Source of the DNA: a virus
IMG/VR virus record: IMGVR_UViG_3300034073_000455
Location: 1 to 35,866 of that record
Direction: 5' to 3' (one strand)
Length of the DNA: 35,866 bases
The notes beneath the pieces are model-generated. The model had not been told where the DNA came from and did no database searches. It saw only the letters and a program-made list of their open reading frames with translations. A program made the position numbers and the translations under genes. Positions 6,153-31,176 of the stretch are shown piece after piece; the stretch's first letter is position 1; every line of letters starts with the position of its first letter.

Positions 6153-6986
6153 ATGGAGAACGCTGACTATCACGCGCACCCTGCGATCTCAAAGTCGCAC
6201 CTGGATCTCATCGCGCGCAGCCCGCTGCACTACTGGGCGCGCTACATCGACCCGAAGCGGATGATCCCGGAGCCGACGCCAGCGATGCGCATCGGCAGTG
6301 CCGTTCACACCCATGTGCTCGAGCTGCACAAATGGGACGCCGAATACACCGTGGCACCTGATGGCCTTGACCGCCGCACCAAGGCAGGCAAGGAGGCATG
6401 GGCAGCGTTCGAGGCTGAGGCCAATGGCCGCACCGTGCTGAGCCGGGAGGATGCTGATCTGGTGATGCACATGGGCAGAGCAGTGCTCGGCCATCCGGCT
6501 GCTGCACTGCTGCTCGGCATGGCAGGTGAGGCCGAGACCACGCACATGTGGACGGAGCCGACCACCGGCTTGCAGTGCAAGTGCCGGCCGGACTGGATCA
6601 CCGAGGACGGCGGCATCGTGGTGGACCTCAAGACCACCGAAGATGCCAGTCCGCGGGAGTTCCGCCGCAGCATCGCGAAGTGGCGCTACCACGTCCAAGC
6701 CGGCTGGTACATGGAGGGCATCGAGGCCGCGTACGGCAAACGGCCATCGGGGTTCATCTTCATCGCAGTGGAGAAGAAGCCACCGTTCGCGGTTGGTGTC
6801 TATGCCGCTGATGAGCAGATGATCGAGCGCGGCTACGAAACCGCCATGCGCGACCTGCAGACGCTGGCGGAATGCAAGGCATCAGGCCGCTGGCCTGCCT
6901 ACAGCGATCGGATTGAGCCGATCAGCCTGCCGGCATGGATGACCGGCGAGGCCGCTACACAGACCACCGAGATCGAGATGTATTGA
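6153..6986 (+). CDS. recE: RecE-like exonuclease (PD-(D/E)XK, DUF3799)
   Basis: A 277-residue protein matching the C-terminal nuclease domain of exonuclease VIII. It digests one strand of double-stranded DNA ends to leave single strands for annealing. Seen: YHAHPAISKSHL near the N-terminus, GSAVHTHVLE around 48-57 (the His/Glu cluster), CKCRPDW at 142-148 with Asp147, VVDLKTT at 156-162 with the D-x-K pair, and a helix with HVQAGWYMEG at 180-189. It lacks the long non-catalytic N-terminal part of E. coli RecE, as usual in phages. The stop overlaps the next start (TGATG), so it is translationally coupled to the RecT-like gene, its expected partner. Confidence 0.9.
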   Translation: MENADYHAHPAISKSHLDLIARSPLHYWARYIDPKRMIPEPTPAMRIGSAVHTHVLELHKWDAEYTVAPDGLDRRTKAGKEAWAAFEAEANGRTVLSREDADLVMHMGRAVLGHPAAALLLGMAGEAETTHMWTEPTTGLQCKCRPDWITEDGGIVVDLKTTEDASPREFRRSIAKWRYHVQAGWYMEGIEAAYGKRPSGFIFIAVEKKPPFAVGVYAADEQMIERGYETAMRDLQTLAECKASGRWPAYSDRIEPISLPAWMTGEAATQTTEIEMY

Positions 6987-7636
6987 TGGAATCCACAGCA
7001 CTCACCACTACCCAGCCCGCGGGCTCTGTCTTCTCGGGGATTCAGGCGTTCGAGGACGCCCAGCGGATAGCGAAGGCCTTGGCCAGCAGCACGCTGATCC
7101 CGCCTCAATTTCAAGGACAGCAGGGGTTCGCCAACTGCCTGGTCGCGCTCGAGATCGCCAATCGGATGGGCATCAGCCCGTTCTTGGCGATGCAGCACCT
7201 GCATGTGATCCATGGCCGCCCATCGTGGAGCAGCAGCTTCATCATCGCGATGGTCAACGGCTGCGGCCGGTTCAGTCCGCTGCGGTTCGAGCTGAGCGGC
7301 AGCGGCGATAGCCTGGCCTGCTACGCGATCGCTAAGGATCTTGCCAGCGGGCAGGAGCTGAAGGGACCGACCATCACGATGGCGATGGCGAAGAAGGAAG
7401 GCTGGGCGACCAAGGCGGGCAGCAAATGGCAGACGATGCCCGAGCTGATGATCCGCTATCGCGCCGCAGCGTTCTGGGGTCGCTTGTATGCCAGCGATCT
7501 GCTGCTAGGGATGCAGAGCCAAGAGGAGGTGGTCGACATTGAGCCGGTCACTGTGAGCGATCAGGTTGCTGATCTGAACGCCGCCATCCCCGAGCCGGCA
7601 CCTGCGCCCGAACCTGAGAGCGATGAACTGTTCTGA
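6986..7636 (+). CDS. recT: RecT-like single-strand annealing protein
   Basis: A 216-residue RecT-family protein, which coats single-stranded DNA made by the RecE-like nuclease and anneals it to complementary strands. Family hallmarks: NCLVALEIANRMG near 48-60, PFLAMQHLHVIHGRPSWSS near 65-83, GPTITMAMAKKEGW, and SKWQTMPELMIRYRAAAFWGRLY in the C-terminal third. The acidic, proline-rich tail (PEPAPAPEPESDELF) ends in Phe. The ATG at 6986 overlaps the RecE-like stop by one base; a longer in-frame extension back to 6935 lies inside the upstream gene and lacks conserved sequence, so I rejected it. Confidence 0.92.
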   Translation: MESTALTTTQPAGSVFSGIQAFEDAQRIAKALASSTLIPPQFQGQQGFANCLVALEIANRMGISPFLAMQHLHVIHGRPSWSSSFIIAMVNGCGRFSPLRFELSGSGDSLACYAIAKDLASGQELKGPTITMAMAKKEGWATKAGSKWQTMPELMIRYRAAAFWGRLYASDLLLGMQSQEEVVDIEPVTVSDQVADLNAAIPEPAPAPEPESDELF

Positions 7637-8126: not shown

Positions 8127-8324
8127 CTACATCAGCTCCAGCTCGAGGCGGGCGATCTCATTGACCGCCTGCTGTAGGAGCTGCTGCTGGTAGTGGGCTT
8201 GCTTGAGGAGAGCAGCCGCCATGATGCCTGCATCCGGGCTTGAGAGCAGGGTGCGGGCTTGTTTTTCTAGCTCAAATTGCTGTTCTGGTGAAACCTCCAC
8301 CAGCATCCACTCACCGAACCGCAT
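8127..8324 (-). CDS. Small two-helix protein, NblA-like in outline
   Basis: A 65-residue minus-strand protein between plus-strand operons. After a short strand (MRFGEWMLVEV) it is predicted almost wholly helical: SPEQQFELEKQARTLL, a turn at SSPDAG, then a long Gln/Leu-rich helix ending in LELELM. This outline and the S-x-EQQF start resemble NblA, the small adaptor that triggers phycobilisome degradation and that some cyanophages carry, but conservation is too weak to call it. No good Shine-Dalgarno sequence is seen. Its start lies 36 bases from the divergent zinc-ribbon gene. Confidence 0.5.
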   Translation of the reverse strand: MRFGEWMLVEVSPEQQFELEKQARTLLSSPDAGIMAAALLKQAHYQQQLLQQAVNEIARLELELM

Positions 8325-8352
8325 TGTGCTAGACCAGTGGGGTACCTATTCA
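8325..8352 (+). promoter_or_regulatory. Promoter-like motif copy 1 (TGTGC-N9-GGGGTA)
   Basis: TGTGC (8325-8329), nine bases, then GGGGTA (8339-8344) and CTATTCA. The same spacing occurs at 8618 and 11875. Read as sigma-70 boxes, TTGTGC (8324-8329) and TATTCA (8347-8352) have a 17-base spacer, which would start transcription close to the ATG at 8361. Confidence 0.45.
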
Positions 8353-8360
8353 GGATAGCG

Positions 8361-8594
8361 ATGCAGTGCCAACGATGCTCCAGCAGCGCAGTGAAGGCTA
8401 TGGCGACCAATGGCAAGGAGCGCAACGTGACGGTGCGGAAGCGGCAGTGCGTCGACTGTGGGTTCGTGTGGTTCACGGTGGAGCTGCCCGTTAGCCCGGC
8501 GGTGGTCGGCTGGGGGCGGATTGATGCGAAGGGACAGAGCAAGCCGGTGCTGCGGGTGCCGGTGGAGATCGCGGTCGGCACTGAGGCCGTGTGA
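8361..8594 (+). CDS. NrdR-type zinc ribbon protein
   Basis: A 77-residue protein from the ATG at 8361, which has AGGA seven bases upstream; the in-frame start at 8337 is less likely. MQCQRC (C3, C6) and RQCVDCGFVWFTVE form a C-x2-C...C-x2-C zinc ribbon with the KRxC..C...F.T.E pattern of the NrdR N-terminus, but the ATP-cone domain of NrdR is absent. Phage proteins of this sort usually bind DNA or RNA polymerase. The C-terminal half (PVSPAVVGWGRIDAKGQ) is unassigned. It follows copy 1 of the promoter-like motif. A transcription regulator is the best guess. Confidence 0.6.
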   Translation: MQCQRCSSSAVKAMATNGKERNVTVRKRQCVDCGFVWFTVELPVSPAVVGWGRIDAKGQSKPVLRVPVEIAVGTEAV

Positions 8595-8607
8595 AGAACT
8601 GTCACAC
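8589..8607. promoter_or_regulatory. Inverted repeat GTGTGA-N7-TCACAC, operator candidate
   Basis: GTGTGA (8589-8594) and TCACAC (8602-8607) are perfect complements with a 7-base spacer, overlapping the stop of the zinc-ribbon gene and lying 11 bases before promoter-like motif copy 2. Its right part, AACTGTCACAC (8597-8607), recurs inverted at 11837-11847 upstream of copy 3. It resembles a CRP-type site, but CRP uses a 6-base spacer. Confidence 0.5.
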
Positions 8608-8611
8608 GGGG

Positions 8612-8641
8612 TTGGCATGTGCCCCGCCGATGGGGCATCAT
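8612..8641 (+). promoter_or_regulatory. Promoter-like motif copy 2 (TGTGC-N9-GGGGCA)
   Basis: TGTGC (8618-8622), nine bases, GGGGCA (8632-8637), then TCATT. TGCCCC (8620-8625) and GGGGCA (8632-8637) also make a 6-bp inverted repeat. A -35-like TTGGCA (8612-8617) lies upstream of CATCAT (8636-8641) with an 18-base spacer. It lies 41 bases before the gene at 8682. Confidence 0.5.
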
Positions 8642-8649
8642 TAGTGCAT

Positions 8650-8667
8650 CGGAGGGAAACGCCTCCG
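8650..8667 (+). repeat. 5' leader hairpin
   Basis: CGGAGG (8650-8655) and CCTCCG (8662-8667) form a perfect 6-bp stem with a GAAACG loop. It lies in the leader between motif copy 2 and the ATG at 8682; it holds GGAGG but too far upstream (26 bases) to act as that gene's ribosome site. Confidence 0.4.
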
Positions 8668-8681
8668 CCGCTTTCCGAATC

Positions 8682-8846
8682 ATGACCAAGCGCACTCGCC
8701 AGATCGCCTTCACTGCCAACCGCAAGGGACAGGCCATCGCCTATCGGTGGTGCACTTCCTGCATCCGCTGGTTCCGTATTGGCTACGAGGAAGCCAAACT
8801 CGCTGTCGCCACTGGTGAGGCGATTGAGGTGCGCTACGTCAAGTAG
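8682..8846 (+). CDS. Small basic CxxC protein of unknown function
   Basis: A 54-residue protein from the ATG at 8682; the frame is open back to 8619, but that part crosses the promoter-like element. Seen: a basic N-terminus (TKRTRQ, NRKGQ), YRWCTSCIRWFRIGY with one C-x2-C pair near 24-27, and a helical C-terminal half. A single CxxC could bind zinc as a dimer. I do not recognise the family. It has its own promoter-like element and leader hairpin and is followed by a stem-loop. Confidence 0.5.
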   Translation: MTKRTRQIAFTANRKGQAIAYRWCTSCIRWFRIGYEEAKLAVATGEAIEVRYVK

Positions 8847-8855
8847 CCGTCAACT

Positions 8856-8890
8856 ACAGCGCTGTGGTTAAAAGGCTTGCCGCCACAGCG
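8856..8890 (+). repeat. Stem-loop after the 8682-8846 gene
   Basis: CGCTGTGG (8860-8867) pairs with CCACAGCG (8883-8890) around a 15-base loop, followed by TTTAGG. ACAGCGCTGT (8856-8865) is also a perfect palindrome. The stem is strong but the T-run is only three bases, so it may be a weak terminator, an operator, or an mRNA end-protecting hairpin. Confidence 0.4.
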
Positions 8891-8948
8891 TTTAGGAAGC
8901 CTCAATCGCAACCCGCCATCCTCCTGATCAAGTACCCATCAACTAACC

Positions 8949-9083
8949 ATGACCAACCGCATCAACAACTCCATCTGTCTCCTTGTCGTCGCGGCCGTGT
9001 TCGCGATGATCGGCATCGAGGCCGGCGACCAAGCAGGCGCCACGCACTCCGGCACGCAGTCCTACATCGAGGTGCGCAAGTGA
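8949..9083 (+). CDS. 44-residue single-pass membrane peptide
   Basis: A short protein with a basic N-terminus (MTNRINNS) and one hydrophobic span, ICLLVVAAVFAMIGI (about 9-23), then a polar Gly/Ala/Ser tail ending EVRK. It is likely inserted in the inner membrane with its tail outside. The next gene starts by GTG overlapping this stop (GTGA), which supports its being translated. The family is unknown. A role in host takeover or superinfection control would fit an early small membrane protein, but nothing in the sequence proves it. Confidence 0.5.
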   Translation: MTNRINNSICLLVVAAVFAMIGIEAGDQAGATHSGTQSYIEVRK

Positions 9084-9253
9084 CCCCCCGCCGCTTCTAC
9101 TTCACGATCAAGGAGGCCAACGTGGTCGAGTGCGTGCAGGCGCACAGCCTGACCGAGGCCAAGCTGATCGCTGCTGATACATGGCTCCCTTGGTGGAATC
9201 AGATCGAATGGCTCAATCCTGAAACCGTCACCGATCCGAATGTCTACATCTAG
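9080..9253 (+). CDS. Hypothetical small protein, GTG start
   Basis: A 57-residue protein starting at the GTG that overlaps the previous stop; the in-frame extension further upstream lies over the membrane-peptide gene in another frame. Seen: a strand-like RRFYFTIKEANVVECVQAHS, a helix (TEAKLIAADTWL) and an aromatic tail (PWWNQIEWLNPE). The alternation resembles small phage proteins whose AHSLTEAKLIA unit looks like a beta-beta-alpha repeat. The related-looking pattern YRLLVYP...ESQKDAIRYAQ in the next gene may point to a shared ancestor. Function unknown. Confidence 0.5.
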   Translation: MTPRRFYFTIKEANVVECVQAHSLTEAKLIAADTWLPWWNQIEWLNPETVTDPNVYI

Positions 9254-9476
9254 CTCTCCGATCGCCTTCCAATGGCGTATTGATCCCGAGGATCAGGGTA
9301 TCTATGGCGAGGGCATCAGCAGGCCTCGCCATGGTGCCCGTACTCGAGAGTATCGCTTGCTGGTTTATCCGAAGGGCGCGCGCCCGTTGACATGGATCAC
9401 GCGCGCTGAATCACAGAAGGATGCAATCCGTTATGCGCAGAACCGCTGGCCATCTGCCGCCGTGGAGGTGGCATGA
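9240..9476 (+). CDS. Hypothetical small protein
   Basis: A 78-residue protein overlapping its upstream neighbour by 14 bases and its downstream one by four. Seen: FQWRIDPEDQG, REYRLLVYPKGARPLTWITRA as paired strands, then a helix (ESQKDAIRYAQNRWP). The C-terminal half has the same strand-strand-helix plan as the gene before it. No catalytic motif, membrane span or cysteine pair is present. The family is unknown. Confidence 0.5.
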   Translation: MSTSSSPIAFQWRIDPEDQGIYGEGISRPRHGARTREYRLLVYPKGARPLTWITRAESQKDAIRYAQNRWPSAAVEVA

Positions 9477-9676
9477 ACAACGCCGCATCCCGCGCCCGTC
9501 TCTATAGCCTGCTCGAGGGCAGCAATACCTTCAAGGCTGGCCAAGCATCAGAACGCGATCGCCTCCGCCTGTTGATCGACATCCGCATCGATCAGCTACG
9601 GGGCATCACCGGCATCAAGAACCGCGACCAGCTTTGTGCTGAGCTGCTTCATCTCCGCCAGTACCTCAACGAATGA
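9473..9676 (+). CDS. Hypothetical helical small protein
   Basis: A 67-residue protein, charged and predicted mostly helical (SRARLYSLLEG, ERDRLRLLIDIRIDQLRGI, QLCAELLHLRQYL). ATGA-type overlaps on both sides place it in a coupled run of small genes. It carries one copy of the cyanobacterial octamer GCGATCGC (9555-9562). The family is unknown; a small DNA- or protein-binding helix bundle is plausible. Confidence 0.5.
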   Translation: MNNAASRARLYSLLEGSNTFKAGQASERDRLRLLIDIRIDQLRGITGIKNRDQLCAELLHLRQYLNE

Positions 9677-9939
9677 AAGCCACCTTCTTCGACGATCAAC
9701 GACACGAAATGATGGAGGCGCTCTATCGCGCCAGCGGTCGCACCTGCGGCACCTACAGCGGCCTATGGGAGGAGTTCGCGCGTGATGTTGCCAGCAACTT
9801 CCGCGATACCTACTACCCGGAGCTGTTCGCGAAGGTGGTCAAGGCGATGGACCTGACCGAATCAGTCCTAACCGAGAAGCAAGCGCAGCAAGCGATCGAG
9901 GTATGTCGGCAGCACCTGCTGGGGGACAAATGGCGATAG
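9673..9939 (+). CDS. Hypothetical acidic helical protein
   Basis: An 88-residue protein with an N-terminal DDQRHEMMEALYRASGR, a middle rich in aromatics (YSGLWEEFARDV, DTYYPELF) and a C-terminal helix (EKQAQQAIEVCRQHLLG). No known motif is recognised. It starts by ATGA overlap and its end overlaps the next start by ten bases. The dense overlaps argue that the whole run is one transcript of small early proteins. Confidence 0.5.
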   Translation: MKATFFDDQRHEMMEALYRASGRTCGTYSGLWEEFARDVASNFRDTYYPELFAKVVKAMDLTESVLTEKQAQQAIEVCRQHLLGDKWR

Positions 9940-10169
9940 CTGCCAGGATCCGCAACCGCACGCTGAACATCCGGGTGACGGACGAAGAAGTAGCAATGGC
10001 GCGGCAGATCGGCAACGGCAATGCCAGCCACGGCTATCGGCTCGCTATTCGTTGGATGGCCGACCGCTCGATCAGTGGCATCCCGCTCAGCACCATGCTG
10101 CGCGCTGCTGCGGAGATGGCGGCCGACCTTGAACGCACACCTAAGAGAGGAGCACCATCCCGTGGCTGA
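9930..10169 (+). CDS. Ribbon-helix-helix-like small protein
   Basis: A 79-residue protein from the ATG at 9930, preceded by GGGGGA at 9921-9926. Residues about 9-40 read as strand RTLNIRV, helix TDEEVAMARQI, then a helix around SHGYRLAIRWMAD, the order of an Arc/CopG ribbon-helix-helix DNA-binding domain. A C-terminal helix (STMLRAAAEMAADLER) follows. If correct it would bind DNA as a dimer and could regulate the early genes, perhaps at the inverted repeats near 8589 and 11837. The start at 9903 is possible but unsupported. Confidence 0.5.
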   Translation: MAIAARIRNRTLNIRVTDEEVAMARQIGNGNASHGYRLAIRWMADRSISGIPLSTMLRAAAEMAADLERTPKRGAPSRG

Positions 10170-10404
10170 TTTGGTCAACCATCCACCGCACTACCAAGCA
10201 GGCACCGTAGAGGCGATCGACTTCATCGAGTCGGTCATCGCCGATGCACCGCACATGGTCTTGGCCTACCTGCAGGGGCAGGCGCTCAAATACATGATCC
10301 GCATGTGGCTGAAGGGCAATGCGCTCGAGGATGCCCGCAAAGCGGAGTGGTATCTGCAACGACTAATTGCCAAGATGGAGCCATGCTCGAACATCTCCGC
10401 CTGA
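10162..10404 (+). CDS. DUF3310 protein
   Basis: An 80-residue protein with a GTG start at 10162 preceded by GAGAGGAG. It carries the DUF3310 signature almost complete: VNHPPHYQAGTVEAIDFI near residues 5-22, then a long helix with LQGQALKYMIRMWLKG near 45-60 and DARKAEWYLQRLI near 64-76. The family is widespread in phages and sometimes called a nucleotide kinase-like protein, but no kinase motif is present and its biochemical role is not settled. It overlaps both neighbours. Confidence 0.8.
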   Translation: MADLVNHPPHYQAGTVEAIDFIESVIADAPHMVLAYLQGQALKYMIRMWLKGNALEDARKAEWYLQRLIAKMEPCSNISA

Positions 10405-10604
10405 ACTGGCTTGAGCGCCAAGCGCTGCGGATCCTATGCCGTAGCGATCGGATCGGCCTGCTGGTGATCAAGCGCCATAGCTCTCGGATGGTCTTCATCG
10501 TCCGAGATCAGACTGATCCCATTGACATTACGGACGCCAATGAGCCGGTGACGATGCAGCTCGAGCGGTTGTATCACCAACCGAGCTACGGAGAGGATGA
10601 GTGA
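10383..10604 (+). CDS. Hypothetical small protein
   Basis: A 73-residue protein from the ATG at 10383, which lies inside the end of the DUF3310 gene; the frame is open back to 10305, but that segment is unlikely to be coding. Seen: a basic, helical N-terminus (LNWLERQALRILCRSDRIGLLVIKRHSSRM), a strand FIVRDQTDPIDI and an acidic end (YGEDE). The family is unknown. The stop overlaps the GTG of the next gene. Confidence 0.45.
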   Translation: MLEHLRLNWLERQALRILCRSDRIGLLVIKRHSSRMVFIVRDQTDPIDITDANEPVTMQLERLYHQPSYGEDE

Positions 10605-10939
10605 TCAGGTTGCACGCCGGCCGACTGCTGCTGGTGTGCGACCGCACCGATCGAAGCTGGCACGCTCGTGTCCTGCTTGGTCCAAAGGCTGAGCACCAGG
10701 TCGAGGTTGATACCGGCACCAGCAGCCTCCACGATGCGCTGCTGAAGGCTGAAGCGGTCTTCCAGGCGGCGGTGGCCAGCATCAGGCCGGAGACCGCCAG
10801 CGTGATGTGCTGGGACTGCATCCAATGGGAGATGAGCACGCAGCGGTGCGATCTGCTGCTGCCGGAGAGCAAGCGAAGTGGCGGGCGCTACGCAGGCCGC
10901 TGTGACTTCTTCCAGCGGGCATTACCGGCGGCAGACTGA
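10601..10939 (+). CDS. Hypothetical protein with possible zinc site
   Basis: A 112-residue protein with a GTG start overlapping the previous stop (ATGAGTGA). The N-terminal half is strand-rich (LHAGRLLLVCDRTDRSWHARVLLG) followed by a helix (LHDALLKAEAVFQAAVAS). The C-terminal third has four cysteines, MCWDCIQWE, RCDLL and GRCDFF, which could coordinate a metal. That cysteine layout resembles small phage zinc fingers, but the family is unknown. It is the longest of the small early genes. Confidence 0.5.
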   Translation: MIRLHAGRLLLVCDRTDRSWHARVLLGPKAEHQVEVDTGTSSLHDALLKAEAVFQAAVASIRPETASVMCWDCIQWEMSTQRCDLLLPESKRSGGRYAGRCDFFQRALPAAD

Positions 10940-10959
10940 TAGAGGCCGTCCTGGTCGCT

Positions 10960-11172
10960 GTGTCCAAGCGTGAGTTCAACACGCCTATCCGTGAGCCGTG
11001 GAATGTGCTCATCCATCAATCGTTGCAGGCAATCGACAGGCACAACCGCCTGTGGTTTGACTCCGGTGATGGATGGCACCTCCAGCAGGCGCAGGTGCTG
11101 CGGGACTATGTGGCGGACCTAAAAACATGGATCCATCGTGAAGAGGCACGGCAATGTTCGGACCTGAAGTGA
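10960..11172 (+). CDS. Hypothetical helical protein, GTG start
   Basis: A 70-residue protein beginning at GTG 10960, 20 bases after the previous stop. It is predicted to be mainly two helices: EPWNVLIHQSLQAIDRHNRL and GWHLQQAQVLRDYVADLKTW. The WHLQQAQVLRDYV segment is typical of helical bundles. No known motif. The downstream gene starts inside its last codons. The GTG start carries some doubt because no clear Shine-Dalgarno sequence precedes it. Confidence 0.45.
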   Translation: MSKREFNTPIREPWNVLIHQSLQAIDRHNRLWFDSGDGWHLQQAQVLRDYVADLKTWIHREEARQCSDLK

Positions 11173-11330
11173 TCAGCCGGGATGACCGCGACGGCGGTTA
11201 CATCGAAACGCTGCTGCCAGCGGAGAAGGGTGAGGTGTATTACCGGAGCTGCGTCGGTGGCGTGTGCCGGTATTCGAGTGACTTGTTTCAAGCGGAGATA
11301 TACCTCAATCAGATGCTGCGGCCTGGTTGA
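11154..11330 (+). CDS. Hypothetical 58-residue protein
   Basis: A short protein from the ATG at 11154, overlapping the previous gene by 19 bases. Seen: MFGPEVISRDDRDGGYIETLLP, then GEVYYRSCVGGVCRYSSD with two cysteines five apart, then a helix (LFQAEIYLNQML). The strand-strand-helix form resembles the genes at 9080 and 9240. Its last 26 bases overlap the convergent HNH gene, so no terminator separates them. Confidence 0.45.
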   Translation: MFGPEVISRDDRDGGYIETLLPAEKGEVYYRSCVGGVCRYSSDLFQAEIYLNQMLRPG

Positions 11331-11619
11331 GCCACTGCGCAATCGCCCACTCGCGGGAGGCTGTCCAGAACGGCTGCTGGCGATACCACTCAAAGACCGG
11401 CTTGTGACCTTTCTGGCTGTTGCACATCAGGCAGCAGGAGACCAGGTTTTCGCGCACGGTGAGGCCGCCATGGACCTTCGGCACCACATGGTCAAGGGTG
11501 GGGCTGCGGCCTAGCGGATCACCGCAATAGGCACATTCATAGTTCCAAGCGAGGTGGATCTGATCACGGGCGGAGCGCCGGGTGACCAGGCGCGTCTCAT
11601 CAATGTGGTGTTGATCCAC
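11305..11619 (-). CDS. HNH endonuclease
   Basis: A 104-residue minus-strand HNH nuclease. C29 and C32 (CAYCGD) and C63 and C66 (CLMCNSQKGHK) form the structural zinc site; TLDHVVPK (D43, H44) supplies the catalytic His, RENL holds the central Asn58 and CNSQKGHK the last Asn/His. It is GC-rich like its neighbours and lacks an AP2 or NUMOD domain. It may therefore be a resident enzyme, such as the HNH proteins that assist cos cleavage in some phages, rather than a homing element; those usually lie beside the terminase, which is far away here. Its start overlaps the gene at 11600-11785. Confidence 0.85.
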   Translation of the reverse strand: MDQHHIDETRLVTRRSARDQIHLAWNYECAYCGDPLGRSPTLDHVVPKVHGGLTVRENLVSCCLMCNSQKGHKPVFEWYRQQPFWTASREWAIAQWLNQAAASD

Positions 11620-11785
11620 TGAGATCGACCGGCAGGGGAACGGCGTTGACCTCTAGGTCGAGAATGTCGTCATCGCTGGGGAGGAACTCAGCGATGTGTG
11701 CGTAAATATCAGCCGGCAGCTCCTCTGGATCGGTTTCGGAGCGCACCACCAGCTTGGCGGTGATCTCGACGATGAACGCCCGCAT
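11600..11785 (-). CDS. Hypothetical small acidic protein
   Basis: A 61-residue protein from the ATG at 11785; the frame stays open to 11935, but the upstream part crosses the regulatory region and was not chosen. Seen: RAFIVEITAKLVVRSE as a strand, then EELPADIYAHIAEFLPSDDDILDLEVNAVPL. The strand-helix-strand order with an acidic face resembles small cyanobacterial and phage proteins with the same VEIT...V.SET start, but I cannot name the family. It is divergent from the gene at 11925. Confidence 0.45.
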   Translation of the reverse strand: MRAFIVEITAKLVVRSETDPEELPADIYAHIAEFLPSDDDILDLEVNAVPLPVDLSGSTPH

Positions 11786-11836
11786 GGGCAGCAGCCCCGG
11801 CTGGCTTAACGGTAGCGACTGCGACGGGAGCAGCTT

Positions 11837-11898
11837 GTGTGACAGTTTGTGAAGGTGCCCTGCATCAGGGGCACTGTGCCCTGCCGGCGGGGTATAGT
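11837..11898 (+). promoter_or_regulatory. Promoter-like motif copy 3 with operator-like repeats
   Basis: GTGTGACAGTT (11837-11847) is the exact complement of AACTGTCACAC at 8597. GTGCCC (11855-11860) and GGGCAC (11869-11874) form a hairpin or dyad. TGTGC (11875-11879), nine bases, then GGGGTA (11889-11894) copies the motif at 8325 and 8618, and TATAGT (11893-11898) is a good -10 box. It lies 27 bases before the ATG at 11925 and 52 bases from the divergent gene. Confidence 0.55.
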
Positions 11899-11924: not shown

Positions 11925-12056
11925 ATGCTCTCCACCTACCAGCGCGAAACCCTCACCGCTCTCTACGCTTCCCTGGACTACCTGACCTGCAACGATCTGC
12001 CCGGCCAAGCCGAGATCCAAGCCGCAATCAAAGCCATCGAGGAGCAGGCCGCCTGA
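11925..12056 (+). CDS. Hypothetical 43-residue protein
   Basis: A short protein downstream of promoter-like motif copy 3. Seen: LSTYQRETLTALYASLDYL, one cysteine (YLTCND), then a helix QAEIQAAIKAIEEQAA, that is, two helices joined by a short turn, probably a small dimer or partner protein. It is followed 23 bases later by another small gene. The family is unknown; support comes from the promoter-like element just upstream and from codon usage like its neighbours. Confidence 0.45.
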   Translation: MLSTYQRETLTALYASLDYLTCNDLPGQAEIQAAIKAIEEQAA

Positions 12057-12079
12057 GCGGCTCTTTTATCCTTCCCACC

Positions 12080-12268
12080 ATGAACTACGCCCTCCGCATC
12101 GGTCCGTGGCACATCGGACCGTTCACCACCCACATTGCTGCCACCACCTTCGCGGAGCAGCACGGCTGTGACGATTACACGATGATCCCGATGGACGATC
12201 CAGCCGAAGCGCCCGCCAAGATCCACCGCCTGCGGGCAGAGCTAGCCCTTGCTGCTGGTGACAGCTAG
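12080..12268 (+). CDS. Hypothetical 62-residue protein
   Basis: A protein from the ATG at 12080. Seen: YALRIGPWHIGPFTTHIAAT, a strand pair with the repeated IGP unit, then FAEQHGCDDYTMIPMDDP and a C-terminal helix (KIHRLRAELALAAG). The pattern of a strand pair, then a helix with HGC, resembles small phage proteins of unknown role. Its last 27 bases overlap the convergent dCTP deaminase gene. The start is likely, since the frame upstream runs through the previous gene. Confidence 0.45.
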   Translation: MNYALRIGPWHIGPFTTHIAATTFAEQHGCDDYTMIPMDDPAEAPAKIHRLRAELALAAGDS

Positions 12269-28545: not shown

Positions 28546-31176
28546 TCAGAGGGTGTCGTTGCCGCGGCTGAAGGACTCAGGATGACGGACGGCAATGTCT
28601 ACATCCTGCATGGCCACCACACGCACAGTGCCGGAGGTGCTGTTGGTGTAGGGGTCCACCATGATGTCCAGGCCGGAGAAGTAGCCGATGATCAAGTCGG
28701 CGAAGTTGCCGAACCACAGATCGCCAGAGGCAACTTGATTGGACAGCACACCGCGGTAGCCGTTCACCTCGCCGTTCTCCATGATGAAGATGCCGGAGCC
28801 GGCGTCCTTCTTCGTGGTCTTGAGGTTGCCGCGCATAGCAGCGTTCATCAGGTAGACGGGGCTACCCAGCAGAGCGTTGGCGGTAGCCACATCGCTCTCC
28901 AGTGCCACCACCTCAGAGAAGGTAGGAGCAGCAGCAGCGAAGTCTTCGGTGCCGATGCCGGTGGTGTTCTTCAGACCCAGAGGCTCGCTGGAGGAACCAG
29001 TGCCGTACAGACCGGCGTAGTCGATCTTGAGGGCGATCACACGAGCCAGATCGCTGCGCACCATGTTCTCCACATCGATGGAGGACTGGATCATCAGGCG
29101 ACGGCTGTAGTCGGTGAAAGCAGCCACAGTGCGAGGAGTCAGGCTCACCTGATCCACGGTCTGCTGGCTTTCGGTAGGAGCGCCAGACTCGGCCACCCAG
29201 TAAGCAGTGCCAGCACCGGACTGACGGGGAATAGCGACGTTGCCGGTCAGGCCGGTCAGCACGGTGGCGCCAGCTTGATCCAGGGCAGAAGCATTACGGA
29301 GCAGGTCGATGAACGAACCGGCATCCAGCTCCGTAGCAACCAAGTTGCCGCCGGCGGTAGCAGCGCCCACGTTCAGGTCGCGACGCAGCACATCCTGGGG
29401 GATGGTGATGCCACGGGACTGGCGGCCAAGCTTGGCAGCAGCAGCTTCAGAAGCCTCGATCTCAAACGCAGCAGCCTCACGGGCAGAGCGGTCGGTCGGG
29501 TTGGCAAGGTAGTTGATGGCGCGCAGGAAGGAGAAGCTGCGGCTCTCCTTCTCGCTGAGGCCAATGTCGGCGGCCTGCATGGTCACAGTCTCCTGGGGGA
29601 TGTTGAGCTTGTCGAGGACAGCAGCGCGAGCCTCGTCGATTGAACGACCAGACTCGACCATCTGCCGACCAAGGTCTGCCATACCGTGCTTATCGCACAG
29701 GGCAGTGATGTCCGAGATGCGGGCGCGCTCAGCCTCAGCGGCTTCGGCACGCACCACGGCCAGATCGGGGGTGGTGTTTTCCATTGAAGGAATGGGATCG
29801 GGTGTTGGTGCTGCCGAAGCAGCAGTGTCTTCCGTTAGAGATCGGCCAATCCCGACACCGGGGTCAGCCGGCACCGAGACAACGCTGATCTCATAGGGAG
29901 ACCAGGCAGTTGCAACATAGTCACCACTGCCACGCTCCTCCATTTTGTCGATGGAGTAGCCGAAGGAGACATTCCGAAGAACGCCATCCTTCACATCACT
30001 CAGGATCTCCTGAGCGAATGGATTGCGGCTGAACCGCACACGCGCATAACCTCGGCGCTTATTGCCGTCGATATACGCGCGCTCCACCACACCGATCACG
30101 CGATCGGGGTTGTGGTTGAACAACAGCGGAGCGCCATCGTTCAGGCGACTCAGGTCAGCCGCCTTGCCTTCATGGCTCAGGATCTCGTTGCCGAAGTACC
30201 GAGCCACTGGATATTCAGAGCTGAAGGGGAACTCATAGATCCGTTCCTCCACCTCATCAAACGCAGTCATCTCGCTGCGCTGATACTTGCCCGTCAGGCT
30301 GCGCAGTGCCGCGATCTTGGTGAGCGTCGAGAACTTATGGCCGACCAGCGTTTCGGTCGCCTCCCAGCCTTCATCGCCTTCGCGGTAGATGCGGATCAGA
30401 GCAGCAGGATCCTCGGCGCTTGCCTCAATGCTGAACTCGGTGTCGGGTACGCCCAGCGTGCCCTCGCGCATCACATGCTCGATCCGGCCGCGCGCAGTGC
30501 CGCCGCTCGAATCCCACTGCACGAAGTCGCCTTCGCTTAGCTCACCTGCTGCAGCACGCTGGCCTTCACCATCGCCCGTGGCTTCCTCGAACTCGATCGG
30601 ATCGAAGTCATGCTCGGCCAACCACGCCCGTGCCTCAGCCGGCGTGAACTGCGAGCTACGGAACCGGATTGCCTGAATCTCAGACGTTCCTTCCTTGATC
30701 CCGTAGATGAAATCAATGCCTGAGCCGCCCGCATCGTTCTCTCGACGCAACGAGTCATATTGCTCGGGATCAGTCAACCGAGCAGCATGTTCGTTCAGAT
30801 AGGGGCGCTCTAAGTCCACGGCGCTTCTTTCTTGTAATGCCTTGATTCTATCGGCCTTTGATGTAGCCCATCCTTGGCCAGCATCTCCGCCCCATGCTGC
30901 CCATGCCACACGCCCCGGTGACGGATAGCCATCCTCGCCCGGACTGAATCCTTCGCCCTGTTTGTCCACTTCATGCCGCGCGAACCATGCCGCCATCGTG
31001 ATCACCGTGTCGGCGCTCAACTCATCACCGCCAAGGATCTGCCCAGCTCGCCTCGCTGCTACCTCAGTGCCACCATCACGCCCCTCAGCCTTCCAGTCCC
31101 GATAGCGCTGCGCCTCCTCCTTCATGCCGTCCGTCGGCATCAGGTCGATCTCCTCTCCGTTAACGGTTGCCATCAA
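28546..31176 (-). CDS. Prohead protease - major capsid fusion with Tudor-like domain
   Basis: An 876-residue head protein combining several modules. Residues ~20-120 are helical (AAWFARHEVDKQGEGF, GRVAWAAWGGDAGQGWA); ~155-200 resemble XkdF-type protease-linked sequence (AIRFRSSQFTPAEARAWLAEHDF). Residues ~213-285 match the DUF2945/HVA Tudor-like fold (GDFVQWDSSGGTARGRIEHV ... LVGHKFSTL). Residues ~310-450 are a U35-type prohead protease with LLFNHN (His355) and NVSFGYS (Ser404). Residues ~468-580 are a coiled delta/scaffold segment, and from ~585 a complete HK97-fold capsid runs to the end. Protease and capsid are usually separate genes; here they must be cut apart by self-processing. The start overlaps the portal gene by four bases. 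Confidence 0.9.
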   Translation of the reverse strand: MMATVNGEEIDLMPTDGMKEEAQRYRDWKAEGRDGGTEVAARRAGQILGGDELSADTVITMAAWFARHEVDKQGEGFSPGEDGYPSPGRVAWAAWGGDAGQGWATSKADRIKALQERSAVDLERPYLNEHAARLTDPEQYDSLRRENDAGGSGIDFIYGIKEGTSEIQAIRFRSSQFTPAEARAWLAEHDFDPIEFEEATGDGEGQRAAAGELSEGDFVQWDSSGGTARGRIEHVMREGTLGVPDTEFSIEASAEDPAALIRIYREGDEGWEATETLVGHKFSTLTKIAALRSLTGKYQRSEMTAFDEVEERIYEFPFSSEYPVARYFGNEILSHEGKAADLSRLNDGAPLLFNHNPDRVIGVVERAYIDGNKRRGYARVRFSRNPFAQEILSDVKDGVLRNVSFGYSIDKMEERGSGDYVATAWSPYEISVVSVPADPGVGIGRSLTEDTAASAAPTPDPIPSMENTTPDLAVVRAEAAEAERARISDITALCDKHGMADLGRQMVESGRSIDEARAAVLDKLNIPQETVTMQAADIGLSEKESRSFSFLRAINYLANPTDRSAREAAAFEIEASEAAAAKLGRQSRGITIPQDVLRRDLNVGAATAGGNLVATELDAGSFIDLLRNASALDQAGATVLTGLTGNVAIPRQSGAGTAYWVAESGAPTESQQTVDQVSLTPRTVAAFTDYSRRLMIQSSIDVENMVRSDLARVIALKIDYAGLYGTGSSSEPLGLKNTTGIGTEDFAAAAPTFSEVVALESDVATANALLGSPVYLMNAAMRGNLKTTKKDAGSGIFIMENGEVNGYRGVLSNQVASGDLWFGNFADLIIGYFSGLDIMVDPYTNSTSGTVRVVAMQDVDIAVRHPESFSRGNDTL

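Follow-up and report, generated by a model that had tools for sequence, protein, structure and literature searches.

The stretch of DNA analyzed here, referred to as the window, is a virus record of 35,866 bases from IMG/VR, and the whole analysis is one of sequence comparison. In its small-gene region the motif TGTGC-N9-GGGGYA occurs 3 times in exact form on the plus strand, always with the same 9-base spacing, at 8325-8344, 8618-8637, and 11875-11894. An earlier note on this DNA took these copies as promoter-like sites ahead of genes starting at 8361 (zr, encoding a zinc [Zn]-ribbon protein), 8682, and 11925. Those starts are correct, being backed by conserved homologs, and the idea of a promoter-associated regulatory site common to several transcription units draws support from the comparisons below. 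Alignment of the sites indicates that, rather than an asymmetric TGTGC/GGGG pair, the element is a dyad of 18 bp, TRCCCYGYSKGYGGGGYA, that overlaps a -10 box. Sequence support for a promoter-operator is good at copies 2 and 3 and less clear at copy 1. The copies and the features around them are these.

8325..8346, plus strand: copy 1 of the motif, an exact match with a good right half-site and a degenerate left half.
8592..8608, strand not assigned: element TGAAGAACTGTCACA over the zr stop codon, conserved and hairpin-capable.
8612..8617, plus strand: -35-like TTGGCA of the predicted copy 2 promoter, at an 18-bp spacer.
8620..8637, plus strand: putative copy 2 dyad operator, TGCCCC-GCCGAT-GGGGCA.
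8636..8641, plus strand: copy 2 -10-like CATCAT, overlapping the motif end; YATNNT is conserved in aligned copy 2 sites.
11838..11855, plus strand: upstream element TGTGACAGTTTGTGAAGG, about 60 bp 5' of the predicted start site.
11856..11873, plus strand: second dyad O2, TGCCCTGCATCAGGGGCA (palindrome GTGCCCTGCATCAGGGGCAC, 11855-11874), directly upstream of copy 3.
11877..11894, plus strand: putative copy 3 dyad operator, TGCCCTGCCGGCGGGGTA.
11893..11898, plus strand: copy 3 -10-like TATAGT, overlapping the motif end (aligned positions 19-24, last-position T at 0.96).

The window has no further exact copies of the motif. In order-2 Markov shuffles of the window, the exact form appeared with a mean of 0.017 and never more than once in 300 shuffles. 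When up to 2 mismatches are allowed, the 22 matches in the window do not exceed the 25.6 expected by chance, so the evidence consists of the exact form and its conservation. A search of 20 related contigs gave 30 exact matches, in 14 of them, and 0 for a reversed control pattern. All of these matches fall at the same 3 sites as in the window, 2 of which flank the Zn-ribbon gene on either side, the third lying to the right of a conserved gene called m11600.

The relatives used here are metagenomic contigs. At the DNA level, the small-gene region matched nothing among annotated phage genomes except the 2 records of Synechococcus phage S-CBS3, and the large terminase has 51-52% identity to those of S-CBS3 and S-CBS1. 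Kin closer than the S-CBS phages are numerous among uncultured contigs. By these sequence relationships we place the window's group as uncultured cyanophages, that is, S-CBS3-like cyanosiphoviruses, with hosts inferred by way of S-CBS1 and S-CBS3. The stretches examined in S-CBS3 and S-CBS1 do not contain the motif, and a profile of the element found nothing above noise in the S-CBS3 stretch. In a pattern scan of 84,980 prokaryote genomes, the matches listed scatter over unrelated taxa as chance would have it, and about one third of the newly fetched matches in a scan of the whole viral collection lie outside the family and resemble chance or terminators.

The consensus comes from 134 distinct sites of the copy 2 and copy 3 types. 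The full 18-bp dyad occupies aligned positions 3-20, and the -10 box, YATNNTT, occupies positions 19-25, so that 2 bases are common to both; copies 2 and 3 themselves are imperfect palindromes. Against this profile copy 3 scores 36.1 bits and copy 2 scores 30.2 bits, compared with a maximum of 14.1 for shuffled windows. The 2 arms appear to change together because no other of the 300 position pairs has as much mutual information as the symmetric positions 6 and 17 (0.45 versus a shuffled maximum of 0.18, in a test that ignores the relatedness of the sites). This is visible in a diverged subgroup with TGCGC as its left arm and GGTGTA as its right, a change of C to purine at position 6 tending to go with G to T at position 17. 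The earlier note had seen a -10-like block after each copy, which is clear at copies 2 and 3; copy 1 has no convincing one on the plus strand. It had also held that the motif does not fit sigma-70 spacing. On the present alignment, the dyad instead fills the spacer of what would be an ordinary promoter. At copy 2 this reads TTGGCA-18 bp-CATCAT (a 9 of 12 match to sigma-70, although such counts are no higher than in shuffles); at copy 3 the -10, TATAGT, is strong and the -35 is weak.

Copy 3 has more structure upstream. The center of O2 is 21 bp, or 2 helix turns, from the center of the copy 3 dyad, and O2 is retained in the closest relatives and lost in more distant ones. Farther upstream, the element TGTGACRGTTYGT is kept in most occupied sites of the copy 3 type, and the reverse complement of TGAAGAACTGTCACA has TGTGACAGTTY in common with it. 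As a side observation, the upstream element resembles the RpaB/HLR1 site, a resemblance alone. The retention of this element, and its inverted recurrence at copy 2, would be accounted for if a host transcription factor read the dyad and/or the TGTGACRGTTTGTGAAC element, making the phage genes responsive to host physiology. We consider this quite unlikely, as the dyad is seen solely in contigs that carry zr and its divergent neighbor m8127, is missing from the S-CBS1 and S-CBS3 stretches examined, and has among the prokaryote matches listed only the chance-like scatter over unrelated taxa.

A palindrome might also function by folding into a hairpin, in RNA or in single-stranded DNA, instead of serving as a duplex site for a protein. 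Copy 3 can fold, at -10.2 kcal/mol, and G-T combinations are tolerated at paired positions. However, the gene upstream of copy 3 is divergent, so its transcript would not carry the hairpin; the element lies 5' of the -10 of its own transcript; and copy 1 pairs poorly. We regard the hairpin idea as highly improbable.

The genes following copies 2 and 3 occupy 2 places, here called slots 2 and 3, whose contents differ among relatives.

8682..8846, plus strand: slot-2 cargo gene, 54 aa; relatives have unrelated genes in its place.
8858..8893, plus strand: long hairpin followed by TTT, a possible terminator after the slot-2 cargo (fold -19.9 kcal/mol; missed by a consensus scan).
11600..11785, minus strand: m11600, 61-aa conserved flank gene left of slot 3, whose homologs start at its Met.
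11925..12056, plus strand: slot-3 cargo gene, 43 aa, from one of about 20 unrelated families at this place.
12047..12066, plus strand: intrinsic-terminator-like hairpin and T-run, the cassette end.
12080..12268, plus strand: g12080, conserved flank gene right of slot 3, adjoining m11600 in empty-slot relatives.

Among 83 distinct m11600-g12080 intervals, 63 have both promoter and cargo, 15 have neither, and 5 are discordant (Fisher P = 8 × 10−12). On a tree of the 2 flank genes the state changes between full and empty 14 to 16 times, and the label is not clustered. L273, the nearest relative at slot 3, is empty, and what it lacks is the whole stretch from just 5' of the upstream element to past the terminator-like hairpin; therefore, promoter, gene, and terminator are one unit. 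The cassette ends were located by pairwise alignment of the window with L273 and of 2 further pairs. The cargo families are unrelated in sequence, with about 20 in slot 3, a similar number in slot 2 (approximate, since automatic start-codon choice is unreliable there), and 3 common to both. Pfam and PHROGs assigned no function to 10 cargo families. We also observe that a few types of 5' leader after the -10, such as CATCAACGCACCGGACCRATG or one with a GGAGG...CCTCC hairpin, recur across slots 2 and 3 ahead of unrelated cargo.

With its own predicted promoter and terminator around a small gene, set between fixed flanks and present or absent among close relatives, the slot-3 unit is like a phage moron in its sequence organization. 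The known morons have unrelated promoters. Unlike them, the unrelated cargo here sits under what looks like one standard promoter-operator, a third copy of which precedes a candidate regulator gene.

The traffic in cassettes raises the idea that the conserved block is mainly a patch of homology through which Exo and RecT swap cassettes, so that conservation would reflect gene flow more than regulation. The window does encode overlapping exonuclease VIII-like and RecT-like genes (6153-7636, plus strand), a possible engine of cassette exchange, and the 3 cargo families common to both slots and the at least 14 gains or losses are in line with it. What is conserved, though, is dyad symmetry and a -10 with variable bases between, a pattern of the binding-site type, and both arms co-change in the diverged subgroup. 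As the principal explanation, a homology patch seems unlikely to us, and it is compatible with a binding site in any case.

The candidate reader of the dyad and its neighbor are encoded on either side of copy 1.

8127..8324, minus strand: m8127, gene for a 65-aa helical protein, divergent partner of zr, with its start codon touching copy 1; conserved in dozens of relatives.
8361..8594, plus strand: zr, gene for a 77-aa NrdR-type Zn-ribbon protein without an ATP-cone (by Pfam, PDB profile, and Foldseek), the candidate dyad reader.

Copy 1 is contained in the 36-bp gap that separates these 2 start codons, and relatives keep TGTGC...GGGGTAC 5' of zr, with the core altered in some. The earlier note had nominated the Zn-ribbon and a ribbon-helix-helix protein as possible readers. 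Of these, the Zn-ribbon protein becomes the best candidate, judging by its NrdR-type DNA-binding domain, the site in its own promoter gap, and co-occurrence: no dyad promoter was seen outside contigs that carry zr as well as m8127, and 3 contigs with m8127 alone have no dyad. The ribbon-helix-helix product (9930-10169) finds no support as a reader, because L124, L125, and L139 lack its gene although they cover the region and carry the motif.

Pfam family PF22811, the NrdR Zn-ribbon, matches all 38 aligned zr relatives with a best E = 1.2 × 10−9, the window member itself scoring 22.5 bits, under the Pfam cut-off of 27.2. The family profile aligns to NrdR in the PDB with E = 2.5 × 10−5. The AlphaFold model (pLDDT 87) was submitted to Foldseek, where the top 11 matches are all NrdR chains at modest E values of 0.005-0.05, one superimposing at 1.5 Å over 43 columns. 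The 2 CxxC pairs, C3, C6, C30, and C33, are invariant in the 38 sequences. We would place the zr product in the Zn-ribbon domain family of NrdR and outside NrdR proper, because it has no ATP-cone, being 77 aa long with the NrdR alignment confined to residues 1-43. One scan for zr relatives in bacterial genomes (prophages) found none.

In NrdR, a pair of Zn-ribbons sits on each 16-bp palindrome, with arginines 12, 26-29, and 37 holding the backbone and with D15 and R17 contacting bases (PMC9110341, PMC12051234). Autorepression by NrdR is frequent (PMC9110341). The zr family keeps basic backbone residues (R26, R28, and, in the majority of members, K/R12) and has changed the base contacts, position 15 being variable and N17 nearly invariant. 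This residue pattern fits a Zn-ribbon dimer that would bind in the same way as NrdR on a different palindrome. In keeping with NrdR are the fold, the CxxC pairs, the basic backbone residues, the promoter-overlapping palindromes, and the frequent autoregulation; unlike NrdR, zr has no ATP-cone, has D15/R17 changed, faces a different palindrome, and has no ribonucleotide reductase target in view.

The m8127 product is all-helical, with W6, E14, E20, R24, QQ46-47, and IA57-58 invariant. No family or fold match was found for it by Pfam, PDB sequences, or Foldseek, and these gave no support to an NblA-like identity that had been suspected from an SxEQQF helix.

A phage sigma factor as reader of the promoters was rejected, as sigma-70 region 2 (PF04542) has no match in the window or in the 9 relatives tested; it is present in S-CBS3. 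Both cultured cousins, S-CBS3 and S-CBS1, encode a sigma factor, downstream of ssb in S-CBS3 (L160 10248-11147, compared with window 8127-9000). In the window and the 9 relatives, the m8127/Zn-ribbon pair comes after the small gene that follows RecT, and regulators may have been exchanged. A lysogeny-type repressor was likewise dropped, since the window and its close relatives have no integrase. L123 and L129 (G023, G022), 2 more distant contigs with a diverged dyad, do encode a tyrosine integrase. Elsewhere in the window, an 876-aa protein (28546-31176, minus strand) has profile matches to both a head maturation protease and the major head protein, an apparent fusion.

The earlier note suggested an activator. 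In that reading, the Zn-ribbon or another phage protein would recruit host RNA polymerase to promoters having a -10 and a poor -35, and the cargo would be delayed-early. T4 MotA acting at -30 and the P2 Ogr/Delta Zn-finger proteins are activators of such a kind. At copy 3, TATAGT is good and the -35 is not, TGTGC lies at about -30, and 3 of the 38 zr relatives weakly match the Ogr_Delta Zn-finger (best E = 0.0076). The dyad, however, extends from -30 to -11, a region in which most regulators obstruct RNA polymerase, and an 18-bp dyad in that position fits repression at least as well; copy 2 does have a -35-like TTGGCA at an 18-bp spacer; and the closest kin by profile and fold is NrdR, a repressor. 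We judge activation somewhat unlikely.

Repression is the more likely use of the dyad, because of that position and because NrdR is an autoregulating repressor. We propose, at about even confidence, that the dyads are promoter-operators on moron-like cassettes, bound by a Zn-ribbon dimer acting as a repressor of zr and of the cargo promoters. The 18-bp operator would overlap the -10 and occupy the spacer toward the -35 at copies 2 and 3, and copy 1 would be a half-degenerate operator in the divergent promoter gap of zr. The slot-3 cassette, made up of upstream element, operator, -10, 1 or a few small genes, and terminator, would be gained, lost, and swapped between its fixed flanks. Host RNA polymerase would read the promoters, because the window has no match to sigma-70 region 2. 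Cargo would be expressed in a burst early in infection, until a dimer of the 77-aa protein, with 1 ribbon per half-site, shut down both zr itself and the cargo promoters.

Several observations weigh against this proposal. Copy 1 is poor in its left half and lacks a clear -10 on the plus strand, and in 1 subgroup an outward palindrome, GGGGCR..YTGCCCC, precedes zr, an imperfect match to the TGCGC...GGTGTA of that subgroup's cargo promoters. Five contigs with zr only (L102, L110, L130, L131, and L138) have no dyad; therefore, the zr protein can have another job. The co-occurrence of zr, m8127, and dyad could reflect shared descent. The association of positions 6 and 17, scored without regard to relatedness, is not strict, as C with T is also present among the aligned sites. 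Finally, the dyad may be used for activation instead.

Two other known systems bear comparison. Anti-CRISPR operons with Aca regulators likewise have a conserved inverted-repeat promoter, interchangeable small genes, and a linked gene for a small DNA-binding protein. The known Aca proteins are helix-turn-helix proteins, unlike the candidate regulator here, which is a Zn-ribbon. AcrIF24 has a helix-turn-helix (PMC9001735). In archaeal viruses, a conserved early-gene regulatory sequence tags many unrelated small genes, with linked regulators, and a search with the conserved early promoter uncovered new anti-defense genes (PMC11065993). The likeness is in 1 conserved promoter sequence marking many unrelated small viral genes; the difference is that those are archaeal promoters and viruses, whereas here a bacterial-type -10 is combined with an 18-bp dyad in cyanosiphoviruses. 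Each part individually resembles a known system, and what appears to be novel is the combination, of which we found no description in our searches of open-licence papers. To our knowledge, hardly any work has dealt with cyanosiphovirus regulators and promoters. For the cultured relative S-LBS1, only a promoter predictor was run (PMC6157547).

We tentatively suggest that a stand-alone NrdR-type Zn-ribbon without the nucleotide sensor has become a phage regulator of interchangeable cassettes through a common operator, which would be a searchable tag for host-takeover or anti-defense genes. The system offers a test of whether a Zn-ribbon without an ATP-cone can be a sequence-specific repressor. 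The element marks dozens of rapidly exchanged small gene families without assigned function, a pattern expected of anti-host-defense genes. The promoter would thus be a tag for finding the fast-changing, probably host-directed genes of this family, and its defined pattern allows an archaeal-style promoter search for anti-defense genes here.

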